Source: Nitrosarchaeum sp. (lineage in GTDB: Archaea > Thermoproteota > Nitrososphaeria > Nitrososphaerales > Nitrosopumilaceae). Taken from it: a stretch of 64,000 nucleotides of DNA. Below are positions 1,636 to 57,812 of this stretch, piece after piece. The position numbers were made by a program, and so were the translations under genes. The notes under the pieces were generated by a model. That model did not search any database. It was not told the origin of the DNA and was given only the letters and a program-made list of their open reading frames with translations. The stretch's first letter is position 1. Each line of letters starts with the position of its first letter. The stretch is taken from positions 1 through 64,000 of the forward strand of contig JAIOPB010000034.1 in NCBI GenBank assembly GCA_021414105.1, read 5' to 3'.

Positions 1636-2460
1636 CTATTTTTCATCTTGTGAATAGACTTGTGGTTTGACTATACTTAGAGAAATTGCATGATCATCTA
1701 TCATAGAACCAACTCCTATTGAGACATTTTTTATCCTAATTTCTATTTTATCAAATTCATTTTCAGAAATATCATATGTTGAAGATAAGATTTCCTTTAC
1801 TTTTCTTTCCGTATCAGATATCACATTTAGTTTTGATTCCAGTGTAACATCCAATGTAGTTTTCATCATGTGTTTTGGAATTTTACCAGTTTCATCATTA
1901 ATTATATAAAACGATATTTTTTCAAGAACAACTTCATGTGGTAATGTATCTAAGGCATTTGCAGTAAAGAAAACCTGAACATCTAACAAGTTTATGTCAT
2001 CTGAAGAATATTGAACTACAGTATTTGGATTAGCAGGATTATAATTTTGTGGTATTGTAACAAATACAAATCCTCCTACATGAGAAGTATTATTTTCTAA
2101 GCCTATTACTTTTTTAATATCCCTACAATCAAGTCCTATTGATTTTTGATGATCTAGTGTCATTAAAGTTGAATGAGATATTGGTCCGTCATTTACAGAT
2201 ACAGTCCATAAAAAAGATATTTTAGATAATTGTTTGTTAGTAATACTGATATCAGTATTATAATGGCCTGGTCGTAATGGACCATTATCATCAATAATGG
2301 AACCACATACAAATTTTGCTACATATGTTATGTCCTTGCTGTCATGATTAGAAACTGCTTTGTCTTCGGCAAAAATTGTATCTAGATAAATTGGAGAAAT
2401 AGCAAGAAAGCTAATAGTAAAAATTAAAATCGCATAATTGTAAATAGAAAAACGGTTCAA
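1636..2460 (-). CDS. Hypothetical exported protein
   Basis: A 274-residue protein whose N-terminus carries a hydrophobic signal sequence (about residues 8-31, ending TIFA). The mature part is polar with predicted beta structure and has no C-terminal membrane anchor or PEFG signal, so it may be released or loosely attached to the envelope. I recognise no family. It lies 48 bp from the start of the partial surface-protein gene on the same strand and opposite the next exported gene at 2588, which suggests a cluster of envelope proteins. The sequence has no metal-binding or catalytic pattern that I can defend. Confidence 0.7.
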   Translation of the reverse strand: MNRFSIYNYAILIFTISFLAISPIYLDTIFAEDKAVSNHDSKDITYVAKFVCGSIIDDNGPLRPGHYNTDISITNKQLSKISFLWTVSVNDGPISHSTLMTLDHQKSIGLDCRDIKKVIGLENNTSHVGGFVFVTIPQNYNPANPNTVVQYSSDDINLLDVQVFFTANALDTLPHEVVLEKISFYIINDETGKIPKHMMKTTLDVTLESKLNVISDTERKVKEILSSTYDISENEFDKIEIRIKNVSIGVGSMIDDHAISLSIVKPQVYSQDEK

Positions 2461-2587
2461 GATATAATATAGGATAATATTATTTGGTTATTAATCTCTG
2501 TTACTATTGTATAAAAATGAAATTAAATAGTTATTTTAGATTTGATAAGCGTGTAATTTTTATTCATGGTATCAAAGAAGAGAACTT

Positions 2588-3400
2588 ATGAGATTTCTAA
2601 TTGCAATACTCTTAATTCCATTATTAATTATTCCAGCATTTGCTCAAACAAATTCACAGACTTTACCAACAGAAAAAGGAACACTAGATGTTAAATTATC
2701 ATATGATAAAATCATTCCAGGACAACAAACTAAACTAAATATTGATTTTATCAATCCTCAAACAAAAAAGATTCAAGAACACATAGATTATAGAATAACA
2801 GTTTCAAAAGACGGTAAATCTGTATTTGGACCAATACCACTTACTCATACTTCGGTAGGCTCAGTAAAAATTCCAGTTGAATTTGTTGATGAAGGAGTTT
2901 ATTCTGTAGAATTTGGAATTGAGGGAATATTATTCCAACCAATTCCTTTGGAAAAGGTTTCATTTGATGTTGCAGTTGGAGAATCTTATGTACAACCTAC
3001 ACAAATTCCTGAAGATAAGAATGATAATGGTTGTCTAATTGCCACTGCAGCATTTGGTTCAGAATTATCTCCCCAAGTACAACAACTCAGAGAATTAAGA
3101 GATAATACAATTCTAAAGACAAAATCCGGAATGACATTCATGACAACGTTTAATCAATTTTATTATTCATTTTCACCAACAGTTGCAGACTTTGAAAGGG
3201 AACATCTGATTTTCAAAGAAGCTGTCAAAATAACGCTAACACCAATGCTGACATCACTATCCATACTAAATCATGTCAATATTGATTCAGAACAAGAAAT
3301 GCTAAGTTATGGAATCTCTATAGTTTTACTAAATATTGGAATGTATGTTGGAATTCCTATATTTGGAATTCTGAAAATATACCAGTTTAAAAGAAAATAG
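2588..3400 (+). CDS. Exported protein with CFI-box-like domain
   Basis: A 270-residue protein with a signal peptide (MRFLIAILLIPLL, cleavage after AFA). Residues 25-130 look like an immunoglobulin-like beta sandwich. A linker is followed at about residue 148 by GCLIATAAFGSE, a match to the CFI-box (CFIATAAYGS-like) found near the C-terminus of many archaeal and bacterial envelope proteins. The rest of that domain follows (LRELRDN, FNQFYYSFSP, FEREH, FKEAVK), and a hydrophobic segment plus basic tail (residues 240-270) probably anchors it in the membrane. The biochemical role of the CFI-box domain is not known to me. The gene stands alone between two exported-protein genes. Confidence 0.75.
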   Translation: MRFLIAILLIPLLIIPAFAQTNSQTLPTEKGTLDVKLSYDKIIPGQQTKLNIDFINPQTKKIQEHIDYRITVSKDGKSVFGPIPLTHTSVGSVKIPVEFVDEGVYSVEFGIEGILFQPIPLEKVSFDVAVGESYVQPTQIPEDKNDNGCLIATAAFGSELSPQVQQLRELRDNTILKTKSGMTFMTTFNQFYYSFSPTVADFEREHLIFKEAVKITLTPMLTSLSILNHVNIDSEQEMLSYGISIVLLNIGMYVGIPIFGILKIYQFKRK

Positions 3401-3458: not shown

Positions 3459-4301
3459 ATGAAGACTATAAGCTCTCTCTTCGTATTATTTGCTATTGTA
3501 GCAGGATTAGTTGCAACAACACCAGCTGCATTTGCAGATCATACAGAAGTCACAATTAGTCCAGCATCAGGATCTGGTGCACCAGGATGTGAAGAGACTG
3601 CAGAAGGATGTTTCATTCCAAAAGAGGCAACTGTAGATGTTGGTGGAAAAGTAATATTTTCTAACACAGATACTGCTGCACACACATTTACTTCAGGTGC
3701 TGCAACAGATGAAACACCAGGTGAAGTGTTTAATTCCAGTTTAGTAATGGCTGGAAGTTCATATGAATGGACACCAACAACTGCAGGCGAAGTTCCATAC
3801 TTTTGTATGGTTCATCCATGGATGACAGGATTAATTGTAGTACAAGAAGCAGGACATGACGGTGAAGAAACGCACACAGAAGGTGCTGGATCTGCAACTG
3901 GAATGTTATCTGATGGCACAAAAGTTGAAATCTATGCTTCTGCATCAACTGCAGGTGAAAAAATGAGCATCTCAGTTGAATTTGCAGATTCAGAACATGT
4001 CAACTATGACATCATGGTAACACAAAATGGTGAAGAAGTACTAAATGATGTTGGTACACATTCACATGATGGAAAAGGTATGCATGAAACAACACCACTT
4101 AGCTCATCAGATCCAGTAGAGATCACCATTACCTTCCAAGGTTATGGAGTAGATGATCCAAAAACGGGACCTATCGGTGAACAAGTAGTATTCTCAAACA
4201 TTGTTCCAGAATTTGGAACAGTTACAATGATGATACTAGCTGTTGCAATCATAAGCATTGTTGCCGTTACTGCAAAATCTAAAGTAATTCCAAGATTTTA
4301 G
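3459..4301 (+). CDS. Plastocyanin-like blue copper protein with PEFG-CTERM anchor
   Basis: A 280-residue exported protein with a signal peptide (residues 1-26, ending AFA). Residues 28-130 form a cupredoxin domain whose type-1 copper ligands are visible: H75 in AHTFTS, then C116, H119 and M122 in FCMVHPWM. Ammonia-oxidising archaea use many such proteins as periplasmic electron carriers in place of cytochrome c. Residues 140-250 form a second beta domain rich in His, Asp and Glu. The C-terminus has PEFG followed by a transmembrane helix and a basic tail, which is the PEFG-CTERM sorting signal of this phylum. It faces a convergent small anchored protein, and the CopC-CopD fusion follows, fitting a copper locus. 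Which redox partner it serves cannot be read from the sequence. Confidence 0.92.
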   Translation: MKTISSLFVLFAIVAGLVATTPAAFADHTEVTISPASGSGAPGCEETAEGCFIPKEATVDVGGKVIFSNTDTAAHTFTSGAATDETPGEVFNSSLVMAGSSYEWTPTTAGEVPYFCMVHPWMTGLIVVQEAGHDGEETHTEGAGSATGMLSDGTKVEIYASASTAGEKMSISVEFADSEHVNYDIMVTQNGEEVLNDVGTHSHDGKGMHETTPLSSSDPVEITITFQGYGVDDPKTGPIGEQVVFSNIVPEFGTVTMMILAVAIISIVAVTAKSKVIPRF

Positions 4302-4307
4302 GAATTA

Positions 4308-4330
4308 ACTTTTTTCTATTTTCTTTTTAT
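4308..4330 (+). terminator. T-rich terminator tract between convergent genes
   Basis: Several T runs (TTTTTT, TTTCTTTTT) follow the plastocyanin stop codon. Archaeal termination commonly uses U-rich tracts with aCPSF1, which this window encodes at 50051-52027. The tract overlaps the 3' end of the convergent gene. No hairpin is evident. Confidence 0.4.
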
Positions 4331-4942
4331 TAAAGCAACTATTGCCAAGATTATTGCTGCTGTTGCAATAGATAATCCAAAAACTGCAAAGTCATATGCT
4401 GCACCACCGTTAACATTTTCTGAACCATCTTTCATAGAGGAAACTTCTCTTTGTAGTGATGAAATTGCATTTTTGAGTGCAGTTACATCTTGATCTGATG
4501 AGGATCCACTAGTTTGAGGAAAATCCAAGATTGCAGTACTTTCTACATCTTCAACTGGAATTTGTACATCAATTGGAACTCCATTAATTTCTCCTTTCAA
4601 ATCCATGATATACGTTCCAGTCTTTGTGGGAATTACAGGTGAGAAATAGTATCCTATTTTTGGATCTGAGTTGATATCAATTTTTTTAGAAATGCCGCCA
4701 AATAAGGCAGTAACTTCTACATTTTTGAATGCATTTGTAACTCCTTTGTATGAACCAGGAGTATCTTCAGGTTCAGTTATTTTAAAAACAAAATCATTTC
4801 TTATACCTATAACTGGAGGTTCAAGTCCCCAACCTACTTCAATTTTGTAAGGTTCTACCTCAACTGTAGTATGAGCAAAAGCTTGAGATACAAATCCAAC
4901 AGAAAGTAACAATCCAATTAATCCCAAAATAGCAACTTTCAT
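4316..4942 (-). CDS. Exported membrane-anchored protein of the copper locus
   Basis: A 208-residue protein with a signal peptide ending at about residue 23 (AFA), so the mature protein would begin with His (HTTVEVEPYKIEVGW). A beta domain covers residues 25-145. A Ser-rich linker and a heptad-like stretch (ALKNAISSLQREVSSM) follow, then one C-terminal transmembrane helix and a KRK tail, giving an extracellular domain on a stalk. I do not know a named family. Placement between a plastocyanin and CopC-CopD and the possible N-terminal His suggest a role in extracellular copper handling, but that is inference from context only. Confidence 0.7.
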   Translation of the reverse strand: MKVAILGLIGLLLSVGFVSQAFAHTTVEVEPYKIEVGWGLEPPVIGIRNDFVFKITEPEDTPGSYKGVTNAFKNVEVTALFGGISKKIDINSDPKIGYYFSPVIPTKTGTYIMDLKGEINGVPIDVQIPVEDVESTAILDFPQTSGSSSDQDVTALKNAISSLQREVSSMKDGSENVNGGAAYDFAVFGLSIATAAIILAIVALIKRK

Positions 4943-5045
4943 GACTGTTATTTTATTGTCACATGTTATTATCTTTACGTGAATTGGTACAAACTTCGAA
5001 TTAAATGAAAACTGTTTAAATTGTCAAACATAATCTGAAAAGTAA

Positions 5046-7832
5046 ATGAGTAAATTTCTAATTATTTCACTGCTCATTTTATCAATATCCATTCCATATG
5101 CTGCAGCTCATCCATTTACTATTGAAACTAGTCCAAATTCAGCATCAAATGCACAAGTTGGAATTACAGAGATTATTGTTCATTTTTCTGAACCAATTGA
5201 GATTGATTTTAGTTCTCTTAAGGTATTAGATAGCAATGGAGAACAAATCGATAATAAAAATTCCAAATATTTTGATGGCGATGATTCCCTAATTGTAACT
5301 ACACCACCATTAAAAGATGGGGTTTATACTGTAACGAGTAAAGTTCTATCAAAAATTGACGGACATTTAGTTGATGATGCATTTATTTTTGCAGTAGGTG
5401 ATATCAAAATTGATGTTGGGGCAAGTCACAATCAAAATGTTTCTGAGATAGTTTTTTTGCCTGAAGCTGGAGCAAGATTTCCAGGGCTTGTTGGTCAAAC
5501 TATTATTTTAGGTGTTGTAATTGCTTCAATACTAATCTGGGGAACTCAAAGTAAACAATTAATCAGAAAAGAATTAGATAAACTGGAATCTTTTCATCAT
5601 GGAAAATTCATGACAATTACAGGTATTGGACTGGTACTTGTTTTTGCATCAAATATTTTGATGTTAGTAGTACAAACCATAAGATTAGAAACTCCAGTTT
5701 TGAATGTAATTCAAACTAATTTTGGAAATATGTGGTTAATTAGAATGATAATCACAGTCATTCTTCTTGGTTTGTGGTTTGGGATGGATAGAAAAAAGAA
5801 TCTATCTATAAAAAATAAAATTCCAATGCTTGCAGCTACGCTTGTATTAATTGGAACTTCAAGTTTGATTGGACATGGTGCAGCCAGTGGAGAAACACCT
5901 GCAGTTATTCTAGATTATATTCATAATTTTGTGGCTGCGGTTTGGATTGGAGGCATAATTTACTTTGTATTTACGTTATTACCCACGTTTTCACAATTGG
6001 AGGAAGCAAAACGAGAGAAGATGACTCTTGTTTTAATTCCAAGATTTTCAACGATGTTTATCATTGCAGTAGGAATTGTAATAATTACTGGACCAACATT
6101 GATGTGGTTTTTGGAAAGTGATGTAGGTTTGATTACCGATTCAGTGTATGGGAAATTAATTCTTGTAAAAATTTCAATTGCAGTAATTATTGTTGGATTT
6201 GGAGGGTATTTCCAGTTTAAGATTCAAAAAAAGGCCGAAAAAGATTTGCAATCAGGCTCTATTGCAGTATACAAGAAACTAAAAAGATCATTGAAATTTG
6301 ATGTAGTATTAGGAATAGCTCTTTTAGGAGTTGTTGCACTACTTACTAATGGGACATTGCCTGCTGGAGAAATTAAACAGGTCGATGCTCAAGAAATTTC
6401 ATATGGTTTTAATACAATAGAATTTTCAGAAAATACAAAGTTCGATATAGATATAACACCATTTTCTAGCGGTGCAAACACAATTCTAGTTAAGGTTAGT
6501 GATTTTGAAAACAAACCATTGAATGATTCAAATGAAATCAAAGTAAAGATTTCCAATCCTCAAAAAAATATTTCTACAATAGAAATTCCCATGAAAATTA
6601 TCAAACAAGAAGAAGATAGGCCAGTTGAATTTCAAGGAGAATTAACATTTGGATTTTCAGGCCAGTGGCAAGTGGAAATAGAGACTCAAAGAAAGCAGAA
6701 TGCAAATGAATCAATTTTTATGAATTTACTAGTTAAACCAAGATTAACAGATCTTAAAACAGAAATCATAGAATATGAGTTACCTGAATCTTCAAAACCT
6801 CTTTATCCTTTGTACGATGGAAAGAATTCAATTTGGATAAGTGATCCATCTTCTCCAAGATTGTGGCAGTTCTCACTTGATACGCAAGAATTTACCTCAT
6901 ACTCATTTGATGGATTAACTACCATGTTACTTACACAAGATAATCAAGGAAAAATTTGGTTTACCGATACGCCAAGAAATCAGATTGGATATTTTGATCC
7001 AAGTAATCAGCAGATTATCACAAAAAGTTTACCAAAAATAGCACCTGTGATTTATGAGAATGTAGCTACTTTCATCCAAGCTGATTTTGATGGAAATATT
7101 TGGATTGCAATTACTAACAAAGATGTGATTTTGAAATATCAACCGGAATTTGATACATTTGAAGAAATCAAGATGCCTGTAAGAGAATCACTGCCATTTG
7201 CCTTGACAATTGATGATGAGGGAAAAATTTGGTTTACTGAATCAGCATCTGGCAAAATAGGATTTATTAATCCAAAAAATAATGATATTTCAGAATTTAC
7301 GCCTGAAAAACCTCTTGCGTCACCAGAGGCCCTAGTTTTTGACGATGAAGGTAATTTGTGGATTGCAGAACATACAGGTACAGCAATTACCAAATTCAAT
7401 CCAATTCTTGAAACATTTGAGAGAATTTCAGTACCAGATCAGGAGGCATTACCTTATGGAATGTCATTTGATAGATATGGAAATATTTGGATTGCAGAAC
7501 ATAGTGTAGATAAGATTGCTGCATATGATCCAGATAACAAAAATTTGATTGAGATTCCAATTCCAACTGCAACATCATTTGTGCAATTTTCAACATCTGA
7601 CAACAAAGACAATGTTTGGTTTGTTGAACAACAAGGAAACAAATTAGCAATGATAAAGACTACAGAGATACCAATAACAATATCTCAAATACCAGATACA
7701 GATGATTTTCAACTAAAATATACTGAGATTGCATCACCATTAATTGCAATGGGCATAATTGCAACATCATTATTTTTTGTCAAAAGTCTAAAAGATAAAA
7801 GAAGATTAAATGAATTAATTATGTCTGGATAA
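5046..7832 (+). CDS. CopC-CopD fusion with C-terminal Vgb-like beta-propeller
   Basis: A 928-residue membrane protein. After a signal peptide (1-21) comes a CopC domain (22-120). H22 would become the N-terminal residue, and D105-x-H107 in the IDGH segment matches the CopC Cu(II) site. Residues about 145-440 hold the multi-helix CopD domain (WIGG near residue 300), known to move copper across the membrane in bacterial systems. Residues about 575-870 contain repeating blades of the form KIWFT/NLWIAE...GKIxxFNP, as in Vgb (streptogramin lyase)/NHL-type propellers; I count at least six. A final transmembrane helix and basic tail end the protein. A TTTAAAT box at 5017-5023 sits about 26 bp before the ATG. 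The propeller probably faces outside; its ligand is unknown. The 3' end overlaps the convergent permease gene by 18 bp. Confidence 0.88.
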   Translation: MSKFLIISLLILSISIPYAAAHPFTIETSPNSASNAQVGITEIIVHFSEPIEIDFSSLKVLDSNGEQIDNKNSKYFDGDDSLIVTTPPLKDGVYTVTSKVLSKIDGHLVDDAFIFAVGDIKIDVGASHNQNVSEIVFLPEAGARFPGLVGQTIILGVVIASILIWGTQSKQLIRKELDKLESFHHGKFMTITGIGLVLVFASNILMLVVQTIRLETPVLNVIQTNFGNMWLIRMIITVILLGLWFGMDRKKNLSIKNKIPMLAATLVLIGTSSLIGHGAASGETPAVILDYIHNFVAAVWIGGIIYFVFTLLPTFSQLEEAKREKMTLVLIPRFSTMFIIAVGIVIITGPTLMWFLESDVGLITDSVYGKLILVKISIAVIIVGFGGYFQFKIQKKAEKDLQSGSIAVYKKLKRSLKFDVVLGIALLGVVALLTNGTLPAGEIKQVDAQEISYGFNTIEFSENTKFDIDITPFSSGANTILVKVSDFENKPLNDSNEIKVKISNPQKNISTIEIPMKIIKQEEDRPVEFQGELTFGFSGQWQVEIETQRKQNANESIFMNLLVKPRLTDLKTEIIEYELPESSKPLYPLYDGKNSIWISDPSSPRLWQFSLDTQEFTSYSFDGLTTMLLTQDNQGKIWFTDTPRNQIGYFDPSNQQIITKSLPKIAPVIYENVATFIQADFDGNIWIAITNKDVILKYQPEFDTFEEIKMPVRESLPFALTIDDEGKIWFTESASGKIGFINPKNNDISEFTPEKPLASPEALVFDDEGNLWIAEHTGTAITKFNPILETFERISVPDQEALPYGMSFDRYGNIWIAEHSVDKIAAYDPDNKNLIEIPIPTATSFVQFSTSDNKDNVWFVEQQGNKLAMIKTTEIPITISQIPDTDDFQLKYTEIASPLIAMGIIATSLFFVKSLKDKRRLNELIMSG

Positions 7833-8636
7833 TAGTCCAGCAGACTTTATTCCCATTGTACATGCAAATATCCCAATTGCAAATAATACAATTGTTCCTG
7901 CTGGTGTTATATCAAAAATATATGAGACTAATATTCCTGCAACTACAGAAAATATAGAAAAACTCATTGAAATTATTACAGTTTGTTTGAAGCCCTTTCC
8001 ATACATTATTGCAGTTACATTTGGGATTACAAATAGTGCAGAAATTAGTAAAACACCAACTAGTTGTATTGAAGTTACAACAGTAATTCCTGCCATAAAG
8101 ACAATAAGATAGTTGATTTTTTCAACTGAGACACCACTAACTTTGGCTTGTTCTTCGTTGAATGTAGAGTAAAGAAGTTGGCGATAGAGTAAAAGAATTA
8201 CAATCAGAATAATTCCTGTTAATGATAAAATCAGAATTGTGTCATTAACGCTGACAAGTAAGATACTTCCAAAAAGAAAGCTGAAAATATCAAGAGTAAA
8301 TCCTCCAGATAATCCAATAATTACGAGACCTACGGCAATTCCGGATGATAAAAGAACCGCTATAGAGGCATCCCCAGATATGTTGAATCTATCTTTAATT
8401 CGTGTCATAATTAGTGCACTAATTATTGAAACACCATATGCAGTCCAAAGTGGATAGATTCCTGCCATCAAACCTAATGCAATTCCACCAAATGATGAGT
8501 GGGCAATAGCATCGCCAAATAAAGAATAGCGTCTTAAGACTAGGAAAAGACCTACTACTGAACACAAAATTGCAATTGCAATACCTGAAATAATTGCTCT
8601 GTGCATAAAACTAAAAGTAAAAATTTCAAAAGTCAT
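7815..8636 (-). CDS. znuB: Metal ABC transporter permease, ZnuB-type (ABC-3 family)
   Basis: A 273-residue integral membrane protein with about eight hydrophobic helices. It carries the ABC-3 family pattern LFGDAIAHSSFGGIALG near residues 38-54 and LVGVLLISALFVIPNVTA near residue 195. It is the last gene of an operon with the substrate-binding protein and the ATPase upstream (2-bp gap to the ATPase). ABC-3 systems import Zn(II) or Mn(II), and the sequence does not settle which. A neighbouring NikR-like regulator raises nickel or cobalt as alternatives. Confidence 0.88.
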   Translation of the reverse strand: MTFEIFTFSFMHRAIISGIAIAILCSVVGLFLVLRRYSLFGDAIAHSSFGGIALGLMAGIYPLWTAYGVSIISALIMTRIKDRFNISGDASIAVLLSSGIAVGLVIIGLSGGFTLDIFSFLFGSILLVSVNDTILILSLTGIILIVILLLYRQLLYSTFNEEQAKVSGVSVEKINYLIVFMAGITVVTSIQLVGVLLISALFVIPNVTAIMYGKGFKQTVIISMSFSIFSVVAGILVSYIFDITPAGTIVLFAIGIFACTMGIKSAGLLSRHN

Positions 8637-8638
8637 TT

Positions 8639-9361
8639 TTAATGATGATGCATATGTTCCTGCATCGAAGCTTCAGAATATTGTTTTACAAGCTCATCGT
8701 TTTCAAAGAAATCATCAGATTCTCCATGAAAGAAAAGAGTTCTATTAAGACAAGCTACATGATTTGCTAATTTATTTACTGCATCTAGATCATGTGAAGA
8801 CCAGATTATTGTAATGTTTTGTTTGGAGTTTAGTTCTTTTAAAATACTATAAAAAAGATCTATACTTTGTTGATCAATACCTGTAACAGGTTCATCTAAA
8901 ATCAAAACTTTGGGATTGTTAACTAAGGCTTTTGCAATAAATACACGTTGTTGTTGTCCACCAGATAGTTCACCTATTCTTCTTTCACTTAGCTCATGTA
9001 TCCAAAGTTGTTGCAGAATTTCATCAATTTTATTTTCATCTGATTCTTTTTGTAATCCCATTTTAACAACGTCATTAACTGTTGCAGGAAAGTTTTTCTC
9101 AAAGATTGGTTTCTGTGGTACATAACCAATTTCTTTAAGATAGTTTTTTGATTTTCTAATATCAGTGCCAAAAAATTTGATTGTACCTTTGTATTTTGTA
9201 TTAAGATTAAGCATTGAAGCGAAAAGAGTGGATTTTCCTGCTCCATTAGGGCCAATTATGCCTAAAAAATCACCTTGATTAACTGTGAAACTAACATCAT
9301 CTATAGCTTTTACATCAGGATATTCAATTGTAAGATGATCAATTTCAACTACCTTCAACAT
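8639..9361 (-). CDS. znuC: Metal ABC transporter ATPase, ZnuC-type, with His tail
   Basis: A 240-residue ABC ATPase. Walker A is GPNGAGKST (about residues 36-44), the signature is LSGGQQQR, Walker B is VLILDEP, and SSHDLD follows the switch region. It overlaps the upstream binding-protein gene by 7 bp and precedes the ABC-3 permease, so it should power that metal importer. The C-terminus ends in HMHHH, a short His cluster that could bind the transported metal and sense its cytoplasmic level. That role is inferred and not a general feature of the family. Confidence 0.9.
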   Translation of the reverse strand: MLKVVEIDHLTIEYPDVKAIDDVSFTVNQGDFLGIIGPNGAGKSTLFASMLNLNTKYKGTIKFFGTDIRKSKNYLKEIGYVPQKPIFEKNFPATVNDVVKMGLQKESDENKIDEILQQLWIHELSERRIGELSGGQQQRVFIAKALVNNPKVLILDEPVTGIDQQSIDLFYSILKELNSKQNITIIWSSHDLDAVNKLANHVACLNRTLFFHGESDDFFENDELVKQYSEASMQEHMHHH

Positions 9362-10290
9362 AATGCCTCTTTTAGATGATTTAGATTCTCAGTCATTCTA
9401 GAAATGTAAGTGCCATCATCACCAATTTCTAACGGAGATAAAACCAGTATTTTTCCTCCAATTTCATTTGCAATCACTTGAGAAGTTTTAGGATCAGCCA
9501 TTTCTTCGGTAAAAATAACTTTAAGATTAAGCTGTTTGGCTTTATTAATTACATTTTCTAAAGTCTTGGCAGTAGGTTCCGCATGTGATGCAGATGATGA
9601 AATTATAGTATGTTGGGTAAGATCATATTCATCTGCAAAATATGAAAAGGCATGATGAAATGCAATGAAATCATGATTACAGCCAGATAATTCATTACGA
9701 ATTTTTGAATCAAGTAAATCTAATTCATCTATATAATTTGCGGCATTTTCTTGAAAATATTGTTGATTTTCAGGATCTAAATTAGAAAATGCATTTGCAA
9801 TATTTTGGACTTGAATTTTTGCAAAAACTGGATTTAACCAAATATGAGGATCTCCAGATTCATCAACATGTTCTTCATACACTAAAGATTCTTTATCCAA
9901 ATTTTTTATAATAATTTCATTACTTGTATCAACTACCACACCTTGGTAATTCATTTCATTTAATTTATCAACCCAATTTTCAAATCCAATTCCATTAATT
10001 ATTATAAGATCAGATTTTTGCATTTGTTGCACATCTTTTATTGTTGGTTCCCAATCATGTGGTTCAACTCCAACTGGAACTAACAATTTTACATCAACTT
10101 TTTCTTTACCAACATTTTGTGAAAATTCACGTAGTGGATAAAATGATGCCATAACCTGTAGTTTTGATTCGTTTGTTTTCTTGAATTGGTTTGAATCACT
10201 TGAAAAAACAGCAAATGAGATTAGGGGAATTGTAATTACAATTGCAATTATTGCGAGTTTCACTTGTCTATTCACACATGATTTTGACAT
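9355..10290 (-). CDS. znuA: Metal ABC transporter substrate-binding protein, ZnuA-type
   Basis: A 311-residue cluster A-1 binding protein with one N-terminal hydrophobic segment (residues 11-29) acting as signal or anchor. Likely metal ligands in the expected order are H78 (PHDWEPT), H149 (DPHIWLNP), H212 or H213 (AFHHAF) and D266 (MADPKTS). The long His-rich loop of many bacterial ZnuA proteins is absent, and only EEHVDESGD precedes the second His. Zn(II) or Mn(II) is the usual cargo. First gene of the operon, divergent from the NikR-like regulator with 77 bp between their starts. Confidence 0.88.
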   Translation of the reverse strand: MSKSCVNRQVKLAIIAIVITIPLISFAVFSSDSNQFKKTNESKLQVMASFYPLREFSQNVGKEKVDVKLLVPVGVEPHDWEPTIKDVQQMQKSDLIIINGIGFENWVDKLNEMNYQGVVVDTSNEIIIKNLDKESLVYEEHVDESGDPHIWLNPVFAKIQVQNIANAFSNLDPENQQYFQENAANYIDELDLLDSKIRNELSGCNHDFIAFHHAFSYFADEYDLTQHTIISSSASHAEPTAKTLENVINKAKQLNLKVIFTEEMADPKTSQVIANEIGGKILVLSPLEIGDDGTYISRMTENLNHLKEALC

Positions 10291-10292
10291 AT

Positions 10293-10356
10293 GTTATTAA
10301 TAACTATATAAAATGTTAATAATTTTAATTGCTAAACTTATAAGATAATTAATAAC
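10293..10356. promoter_or_regulatory. Shared control region of the metal ABC operon and NikR-like gene
   Basis: Between the two divergent starts lies a perfect 12-bp palindrome, GTTATTAATAAC (10293-10304), 3 bp from the znuA ATG. Its half-site recurs as TTAATAAC at 10349-10356 and, less exactly, at 10315-10322. A palindromic TATA-like box CTTATAAG (10337-10344) is centred about 27 bp before the regulator ATG. The arrangement suits a metal-sensing repressor controlling both directions. Given the AT-rich background, the palindrome is suggestive rather than proven. Confidence 0.45.
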
Positions 10357-10367
10357 AATTAGCATTT

Positions 10368-10751
10368 ATGCCGATAGTTTCAATTTCATTGAATCAAGAG
10401 ATTTTATCAGAATTAGACAAGTTGCAAAAAACTATGGGCTTTTCAGGTAGGTCTGAAGCAATAAGGGCAGGAATCAGAACTTTTGTTTCAGAAGAAAAAC
10501 AAAGATCTGAATTAACAGGAAATATTCATGCTATTCTTTTAGTTGTTCATAATGACGAGTTTGATCATGTTGTATCTGGAATAAAACATAATTTTGAAGA
10601 TCTGATTACAACACATCTACACAGTAAGATAGAAGGAGAGAAGTGTATGGAATTATTTGTAATTGATGGCGATGCAGAAAGAGTATCAACTATTACAAAA
10701 GATTTTCAAGTAAACAAAAACATGGATACCGTAAAATTAGTAACATTATAG
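10368..10751 (+). CDS. nikR: NikR-like ribbon-helix-helix metal-responsive regulator
   Basis: A 127-residue protein. Residues 1-45 form a ribbon-helix-helix DNA-binding domain (SISLNQEILSELDKL, then GFSGRSEAIRAGIRTF). Residues 50-127 resemble the NikR ACT-like metal domain, with HLH (H83, H85), C93 and the following MELFVIDGD. E. coli NikR has H-x-H-x5-C; here the gap from the second His to the Cys is seven residues, so metal geometry or specificity may differ. Family members repress nickel uptake when Ni(II) is bound. The divergent target here looks like a Znu-type importer, so either the importer carries Ni/Co or the regulator has changed metal. Confidence 0.85.
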   Translation: MPIVSISLNQEILSELDKLQKTMGFSGRSEAIRAGIRTFVSEEKQRSELTGNIHAILLVVHNDEFDHVVSGIKHNFEDLITTHLHSKIEGEKCMELFVIDGDAERVSTITKDFQVNKNMDTVKLVTL

Positions 10752-56309: not shown

Positions 56310-57335
56310 ATGGATTTTCTAAAAATTAATGGAGAATTTGGTGAGGGTGGAGGACAAATAATTCGTACCGCAATAACATTATCATGTATTACAAAACGAC
56401 CTATAATTATAGAAAATATTAGAAAAAATAGAAAGATTCCGGGATTAAGACCACAACATCTTACAGCAATAAAAATTCTTCAAAAAATTTGTGATGCAGA
56501 TGTAGAAGGAGCAAAAATAGGATCAACAAGTTTAAAATTTGTTCCAGGGAATGTAAAAAGTTGCAATCTAATAGAAGATATTGGAACAGCTGGAAGTATA
56601 TCTCTAATACTACAAGTGTTGATTCCAGTAGCAGCAATTTGTCAAAAAAAATTAAATTTAACAATCAAGGGAGGTACAGATGCCTTATGGAGTCCAACAA
56701 TTGATTATACTCAATATGTCTTAAAAGAAGCATATTCAAGAATGGGAATTAAATTTTCAGTGAAATTAATCAAACGTGGTTATTATCCTAAAGGTGGTGG
56801 GGAAGTAAACCTGGAGGTTTTACCATCTAATGTAAAATCAATTTTATTATATCAAAGAAAAACAAAAAATATAAAATTACTTTGTTCATTTTCTAATTTA
56901 CCAAATGAATTAATAAAAAAACATGTTAAAAGTATTGAAAGAAAATTAACTGAAAAAAAATTTGTTGTTCAAACACAGATAAATGAAGAAAATGCAATTG
57001 ATTCTGGGGCATCTTTATTGATTTTTAGTATTGATGAAGAATCAATAATTGGAATTGATTCTATATTTGATAAAAAAATTGAGAAATTTGATTTAGATTT
57101 AGAAAGTTTTACTGAAAATAATCTTGGTGTTGATGAACGTCTTGCAGATATGCTTGTATTACCAGCAAGTCTTACTAATGAAATGACAATTTTTAGAGTT
57201 AATAATATATCAAAACATTTAGAGACAAATTTGTTTGTGACTTCAAAAATTACTGGCTGCAAATATGGTGTAGGCAAATTAAGTGATGGTTTTGAGGTTA
57301 GGATAGAAGGTGTCTCAAACACCAGTATCAAGTAA
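56310..57335 (+). CDS. rtcA: RNA 3'-terminal phosphate cyclase
   Basis: A 341-residue enzyme that turns RNA 3'-phosphates into 2',3'-cyclic phosphates with ATP. EGGGQIIRTAITLSCIT starts the fold, followed by PGLRPQHLTAIKIL and GGTDALWSPTIDY; the adenylated His is likely the one in SKHLETNLFV near residue 303. It may act in RNA repair or tRNA intron handling; no RtcB gene is in the window. The 3' end overlaps the convergent CopD-like gene by 21 bp. Confidence 0.94.
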   Translation: MDFLKINGEFGEGGGQIIRTAITLSCITKRPIIIENIRKNRKIPGLRPQHLTAIKILQKICDADVEGAKIGSTSLKFVPGNVKSCNLIEDIGTAGSISLILQVLIPVAAICQKKLNLTIKGGTDALWSPTIDYTQYVLKEAYSRMGIKFSVKLIKRGYYPKGGGEVNLEVLPSNVKSILLYQRKTKNIKLLCSFSNLPNELIKKHVKSIERKLTEKKFVVQTQINEENAIDSGASLLIFSIDEESIIGIDSIFDKKIEKFDLDLESFTENNLGVDERLADMLVLPASLTNEMTIFRVNNISKHLETNLFVTSKITGCKYGVGKLSDGFEVRIEGVSNTSIK

Positions 57336-57812
57336 AGATGCAAAAAATAGAATTGCTACAGATAAAACTACTGTGATTTCTCCAAGAATGATAATTTTTT
57401 TTCTTAACTTTTGAATTTGAAGAGGTGACATTTGTTTTGACATTATCTTGTCTTCTACATCTTTTCTGATAACTCTTACATGTATTACATATGTAATAAT
57501 TAACGCAATGACCAAAACTATCTTAATGATAAGAAAATTGCCATAGCTTGTAGCCATTAACAAATCAGGTTTACTCAAAAGCACATGTGAATTGTATAAA
57601 CCAGTACCTATGAGAATTATTAATGATGGAATAGCAATTTTGTTGAATCTTTTGCCAACTTTAATCATAAGTTGTAATCTTTCTTCAACAGAATCAAACA
57701 TTGTTTTGAGAAGAGGAGAAAAAACAATTCCAATGAAAATGGAACCTCCTACCCAAATAGCAGCTGAAATAAGATGAATCCATAAAATTATTGCTTGCTC
57801 TAATGGAGTCAT
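57315..57812 (-). CDS. CopD-like four-helix membrane protein
   Basis: A 165-residue membrane protein with four helices. The first helix, LWIHLISAAIWVGGSIFIGI, carries the His and the WVGG pattern seen in CopD. It is a single short domain, unlike the fused CopC-CopD protein at 5046-7832. It may move copper or be a heme-free relative. Its divergent neighbour is the LEA14-like gene (82 bp). Confidence 0.8.
   Translation of the reverse strand: MTPLEQAIILWIHLISAAIWVGGSIFIGIVFSPLLKTMFDSVEERLQLMIKVGKRFNKIAIPSLIILIGTGLYNSHVLLSKPDLLMATSYGNFLIIKIVLVIALIITYVIHVRVIRKDVEDKIMSKQMSPLQIQKLRKKIIILGEITVVLSVAILFFASLLDTGV

Follow-up and report, generated by a model that had tools for sequence, protein, structure and literature searches.

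The window analysed here, a 64,000-nucleotide stretch of contig JAIOPB010000034.1 from a Nitrosarchaeum sp. genome of 1,288,093 bases (G000), contains at 5046..7832 (+) an open reading frame whose 928-residue product is a real fusion of four modules plus a terminal helix, all described below on the + strand. A CopC domain (residues 22-117, 5109..5396; Pfam 1.7e-11), the only one found in the genome, carries the ligands His22, Asp105, and His107, and signal cleavage would be expected just before His22, making that residue the mature N-terminus. It is followed by a CopD membrane domain of eight long helices (residues 138-434, 5457..6347; Pfam match at residues 331-433, 7e-16) with invariant His277, Asp290, and His293, by a YtkA-like extracytoplasmic domain (residues 461-545, 6426..6680; Pfam 1.1e-5), and by a seven-bladed propeller of the virginiamycin B lyase (Vgb) type (residues 570-877, 6753..7676), within which the Vgb_lyase family matches residues 705-883 at 5.3e-44. 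The chain closes with a helix ending in a basic tail (residues 892-927, 7719..7826). Nine Pfam families match the fusion in total, and those besides CopC, CopD, YtkA, and Vgb are propeller-like or weak.

The initial annotation had described a three-part polypeptide of CopC, CopD, and a propeller with a final helix. Each of these parts is located by domain search or structure prediction, but the count of three is wrong, since the YtkA-like domain is also present, and CopC, CopD, and YtkA thus follow one another in the order of YcnJ within one chain. The YtkA-like score barely exceeds the Pfam cut-off; the family was scored by Pfam in 22 of 32 fusion relatives and missed in 10, and in other four-part copies the domain was detected with a profile built here. 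An AlphaFold2 model built from 32 aligned relatives has a mean pLDDT of 84.1, with ten-residue blocks of the propeller at 85-96, and predicts the same succession of membrane helices, beta domain, seven blades, and final helix.

Divergent from the fusion lies its closest neighbour, orf208 (4316..4942, -), and beyond this is a plastocyanin-like protein with a PEFG-CTERM (3459..4301, +; Pfam). Of 89 loci considered, the 43 that reach 13.5 kb or more were used to assess synteny, with a homologue anywhere in the stretch being counted. On this basis, an orf208 homologue is found near the fusion in 42 of the 43 long loci, plastocyanin in 36, and ZnuB in 25; in the Nitrosocaldus loci, orf208 lies downstream of the fusion and not upstream. 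The plastocyanin neighbour that had been pointed out earlier is therefore kept, but orf208 and the upstream motif that it shares with the fusion had been overlooked. Further genes of the region include a CFI-box-CTERM protein (2588-3400, +), whose homologues accompany the fusion in 39 of 43 loci, and zinc/manganese-type ABC transporter genes ZnuB/C/A with a NikR-like regulator (7815-10751), which are convergent with the fusion and overlap it by 18 nt. Farther away in the window, a lone CopD of 165 residues scores above the Pfam cut-off (57315-57812, -).

The orf208 product has a signal peptide, an N-terminal His24, a CrdA/YtkA-like beta domain (24-134), a helical linker, and a C-terminal transmembrane segment. 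Of 105 aligned sequences, 104 keep His24, 104 keep Trp38, and all 105 have Glu41; His24, which follows Ala23, sits where signal cleavage would be expected. No Pfam family matches orf208 itself, and YtkA matches 3 of 26 relatives (best 5.9e-4). Its model (pLDDT 83.4) is closest in fold to Helicobacter pylori CrdA (Z 11.4, rmsd 2.5, 101 residues aligned), followed by copper-bound FetP (Z 10.6), a DUF4426 protein whose role is unknown (Z 10.2), P19 (Z 9.2), and a DUF4785 protein (Z 8.9). A search of PDB sequences with the orf208 profile returned coiled-coil and other weak matches. Homology to YcnI by sequence was considered and rejected, the arrangement alone being alike: hhalign gave a probability of 0.6 percent against one Priestia YcnI, and DUF1775 is not among the best 25 of 51 families for 26 orf208 members. 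A YcnI structure is likewise absent from the fold matches listed for orf208, which is no evidence against a likeness.

Conservation in the fusion itself is concentrated at few positions. Among 117 unique aligned homologues (from 129 proteins collected), His22, Asp105, His107, His277, Asp290, and His293 are present in every one, so that the CopC site reported as intact in the window is also invariant. Within the propeller, His776 (codon 7371-7373, +) and His819 (codon 7500-7502, +) are found in 116 of 116 sequences and Gln847 in 115 of 116 where the residue is present, a gap accounting for the counts of 116 (L068 is a fragment). Exactly six histidines, at positions 22, 107, 277, 293, 776, and 819, are invariant in a set of 49 aligned proteins drawn from loci L001-L053 without L002, L003, L043, and L053. 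In an alignment with a Priestia YcnJ-like protein, His22, Asp105, and His107 correspond to His25, Asp107, and His109, and His277 and His293 to His268 and His285; these five fusion positions hold the same residues in the Priestia protein and in a Natrinema CopC-CopD protein. His295 of Bacillus subtilis YcnJ is likely the counterpart of fusion His293.

The predicted propeller superposes collinearly on the Vgb structures 2z2o and 2qc5 in VIA-align (Z 38.9, 295 residues aligned, rmsd 1.7 and 1.9, respectively), with Escherichia coli YncE as the next propeller match (Z 32.5). It is not a Vgb-type lyase, because the residues of the virginiamycin lyase are gone: His228, Glu268, His270, and Glu284, which we take to be the active-site residues of Vgb, are Tyr804, Phe845, Gln847, and Gln862 in the fusion when aligned to Vgb(A). 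Among the four, it is His270 whose role is backed by the title of entry 2z2p (H270A). The earlier suggestion of an enzyme-like module accordingly does not hold in the Vgb sense. His776 and His819 each stand four residues past the blade tryptophan on neighbouring blades, and Vgb Glu284 occupies the equivalent place on the next blade; from this blade pattern, the two histidines and the Glu284 position would face one funnel. The stand-alone archaeal Vgb-like propellers L054, L055, L056, L060, L062, and L151 also have a His pair that is conserved on adjacent blades, and stand-alone propellers of this kind are likely mis-annotated as virginiamycin lyases.

A scan of the phylum matched the fusion in 108 of 398 genomes. 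Of the 74 matching genomes that belong to the same order, 67 carry it in full or nearly so (one split over two contigs), which speaks for a conserved fusion and against a chance joining. The other seven are G070, G093, G100, G080, G096, G084, where a contig end cuts the gene, and G106, which has just the propeller. Another 34 genomes match from outside the order, with nothing but propeller or CopD pieces among the matches listed. By this census, the order has long had the fusion. At the level of the class, 349 of 400 genomes match in some way, many partially, and AmoA is found in 249 of 400, with families f1, f2, f3, and f5 among the matches listed. A strict tie between the fusion and ammonia oxidation was rejected, since a genome of family f7 (G166), which is not among the AmoA matches listed, encodes a whole four-part protein with 27 percent identity to the window copy (L052). 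A scan of contigs found 212 relatives, and the 80 kept are all archaeal by title, most titles naming genera of ammonia-oxidizing archaea or Thaumarchaeota; in a plasmid collection, none of the 49 matching records covers 80 percent of the fusion query.

Other arrangements of the same parts occur. Three f3/g24 genomes have, as judged from open frames, a CopC-YtkA protein of 257-276 residues with no propeller attached, and in 2 of the 3 stretches a CopD-type protein of 500 residues is encoded on its own nearby. This arrangement appears to be that of Nitrosocosmicus-like genomes: G070 is presumably a Nitrosocosmicus, and the copC-copD region NFRAN_1082-1084 of N. franklandianus, as given in the available part of PMC12448741, agrees with this. 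In G136 and G132, four-part and three-part (CopC-CopD-YtkA) genes stand in tandem, and in the stretch L183, which we infer to come from N. viennensis, a second orf208-like gene of 251 residues lies between the two (7888-8640, -). Two full-length four-part copies are present in G161, G374, and G141, one of the G161 copies being 51 percent identical to that of the window; such duplicates may be paralogues or reflect mixed bins.

The intergenic region from which orf208 and the fusion diverge holds a motif resembling one linked to copper limitation, TTCGAAGTTTGTACCAAT (4983..5000, -). According to the available part of Reyes 2020 (PMC7785015), the N. viennensis motif TTCSGSMTTTGWACYANT precedes genes raised by copper limitation, with two copies ahead of copC/D_b and an opposite-strand occurrence ahead of the exported protein NVIE_014340. 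In G132, also assigned by inference to N. viennensis, there are 4 matches with at most two mismatches against 0.035 expected: two upstream of the four-part gene, one on the opposite strand upstream of an orf208 homologue (E 1e-63 to the orf208 profile), and one before a small gene adjoining an ArsR-like gene. Because this pattern of motif and gene order fits the published one, the four-part protein very probably corresponds to copC/D_b, and the orf208 homologue very probably to NVIE_014340.

In the window, TTCGAAGTTTGTACCAAT has three mismatches to the Reyes consensus, and since the 64 kb contain 3 such matches versus 2.7 by chance, the match alone is not significant. TTCGNNNTTTGTACCAAT, the pattern of the window motif itself, has a single exact match per genome in 4 genomes, in each case directly before the fusion; the ArsR-like gene close to copC/D in L183 is a candidate for the regulator acting at this site. 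Of 96 unique upstream regions (kept from 122), 59 contain the core TTTGTAC on one strand or the other, versus 7.2 in shuffles, and 37 do not, counts that the relatedness of the sequences inflates; 48 of the 59 core-bearing regions also have GGTACAAA at the same distance. The anchored alignment was thinned to 13 core-bearing regions and so gives no rate. One copper-responsive promoter probably drives both genes, fusion and orf208, in opposite directions.

Ammonia-oxidizing archaea rely heavily on copper, and ideas about their uptake of it are drawn largely from gene names. Judged by analogy, the window copy is probably an expanded Cu(II) importer of the YcnJ type bearing a propeller module of unproven role, with the importer part well supported by that analogy. 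The N-terminal His brace of CopC would capture Cu(II) in the pseudo-periplasm, where the tethered partner orf208 would probably do so as well, and the copper would then be passed to CopD His277 and His293 for import, as the genetics of B. subtilis YcnJ suggests. The YtkA domain may hand copper to CuA-type sites on the outside. Since the number of CopD helices is even, the propeller should lie on the same outer side as CopC, held by the final helix, and would most likely be a module on which copper donors or acceptors dock or which presents ligands to them; a metal site at His776/His819 within it is possible. Counted against this reading are the down-regulation of CopC/D, with a lone copD up, in N. 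maritimus under copper limitation (available part of Reyes 2020, PMC7785015), the tie between a CopC protein and hydrogen peroxide taken up below, and the f3/g24 genomes, which manage without the propeller fusion. Seen as YcnJ with a propeller added, the protein, together with its linked CrdA-like neighbour and the motif common to both, provides residues that can be tested and a well-delimited pair of genes, and this view joins the copper-limitation data of N. viennensis to marine and freshwater lineages.

A more specific role for the propeller, which we put forward tentatively and regard as somewhat unlikely, would have it bind copper itself, through His776, His819, and Gln847 at the funnel of the Vgb active site, and pass the metal to CopC, YtkA, or CopD. 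The near-complete conservation of these three residues points this way, as does the set of six invariant histidines, the remaining four of which belong to CopC and CopD. Two stand-alone propellers close to that of the fusion also lie beside copper proteins, one (L184) adjoining a multicopper oxidase and a weak cupredoxin and the other (L185) a plastocyanin-family protein, and with such neighbours the propeller may have a copper role. The L184 propeller gene (1874-3241, -) is in a genome not among the AmoA matches listed. On the other side, of 24 stand-alone archaeal propellers, those retrieved here and not a random sample, 13 have the His pair too, compared with 0 of 2 bacterial Vgb proteins and 0.2 percent of shuffled sequences; its specificity for the copper fusion was accordingly rejected, and the pair need not bind copper. 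Two histidines and one glutamine would, moreover, make a thin copper site.

A wider proposal builds on such a site and is doubtful as a whole: copper uptake in ammonia-oxidizing archaea could proceed through a two-protein surface complex, comprising a four-part importer with a third metal site (His776/His819/Gln847) and orf208 as a tethered CrdA-like Cu(II) chaperone, both under one copper-responsive divergent promoter.

It is unlikely that the system serves mainly as a buffer against copper or oxidative stress and not as an importer. In the available part of Bayer 2019 (PMC6593220), a membrane-located copper protein that starts with CopC rises with hydrogen peroxide in three Nitrosopumilus, and this is probably the present fusion, since in each of the five Nitrosopumilaceae genomes examined the one CopC found is that of this protein. 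Filters exposed to air (PMC11561398) and soil biofilms (PMC12448741) are further settings in which copC/D goes up, as far as the available parts of these reports go. Opposed to a buffering role are the rise of copC/D genes when copper is limited in N. viennensis (available part of Reyes 2020, PMC7785015) and a domain layout that is the one of the importer YcnJ. N. franklandianus and N. sinensis have unequal copper requirements in the available part of PMC13003922, a difference not assignable to this gene.

Quite improbable, in our assessment, is a propeller that acts as a divergent enzyme, for example by opening organic copper ligands for copper uptake. Its nearest fold is indeed that of an enzyme, and a conserved polar set is kept at positions matching the Vgb active site, but the four Vgb residues themselves have given way to aromatic residues or glutamine. 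That the fusion arose by chance or in assembly and lacks a function has negligible likelihood and is ruled out by the genome census, with the 80 kept loci alongside it and one long open frame in the matches listed.

Among known systems, the CopC/D fusions of ammonia-oxidizing archaea, copC/D_a and copC/D_b, are described as CopC plus CopD only in Reyes 2020 (PMC7785015), and the terms "propeller," "virginiamycin," and "Vgb" have no occurrence in that text. No account of either the propeller or the YtkA portion of such a protein was found in the literature searched, subscription papers and supplements aside, nor do the papers found describe a two-protein complex of importer and orf208 as such. 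Vgb shares the seven-bladed fold, whereas the propeller here differs at four active-site positions and is fused to a copper module. CrdA shares the fold of the orf208 beta domain at 15% identity, and orf208 adds a helical linker and a membrane anchor. YcnI resembles orf208 in its N-terminal His, its membrane tether, and a gene beside that of an importer, with which it exchanges Cu(II) in the case of YcnJ (available part of PMC12362106); it differs in belonging by sequence to DUF1775. The haloarchaeal Natrinema protein (L148) has CopC, CopD, a weak YtkA/FixH match, and the same CopC and CopD ligands, but no propeller follows its YtkA part before the C-terminus.

The closest parallel is YcnJ of B. 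subtilis (CopC-CopD-YtkA, encoded in ycnKJI), whose three domains have the order of the first three of the fusion; the Priestia YcnJ-like protein has that order too, and its gene adjoins a YcnI/DUF1775 gene. YcnJ likewise combines an N-terminal His of CopC and a conserved CopD His with an adjoining gene for a tethered copper-protein-like product. In the available part of PMC13344008, CopC His24 and CopD His295 are required in B. subtilis under copper limitation, and YtkA supports oxidase assembly. YcnJ as described is without a propeller, whereas the fusion has one, and the fusion is a real, conserved, and new variant of the YcnJ kind.
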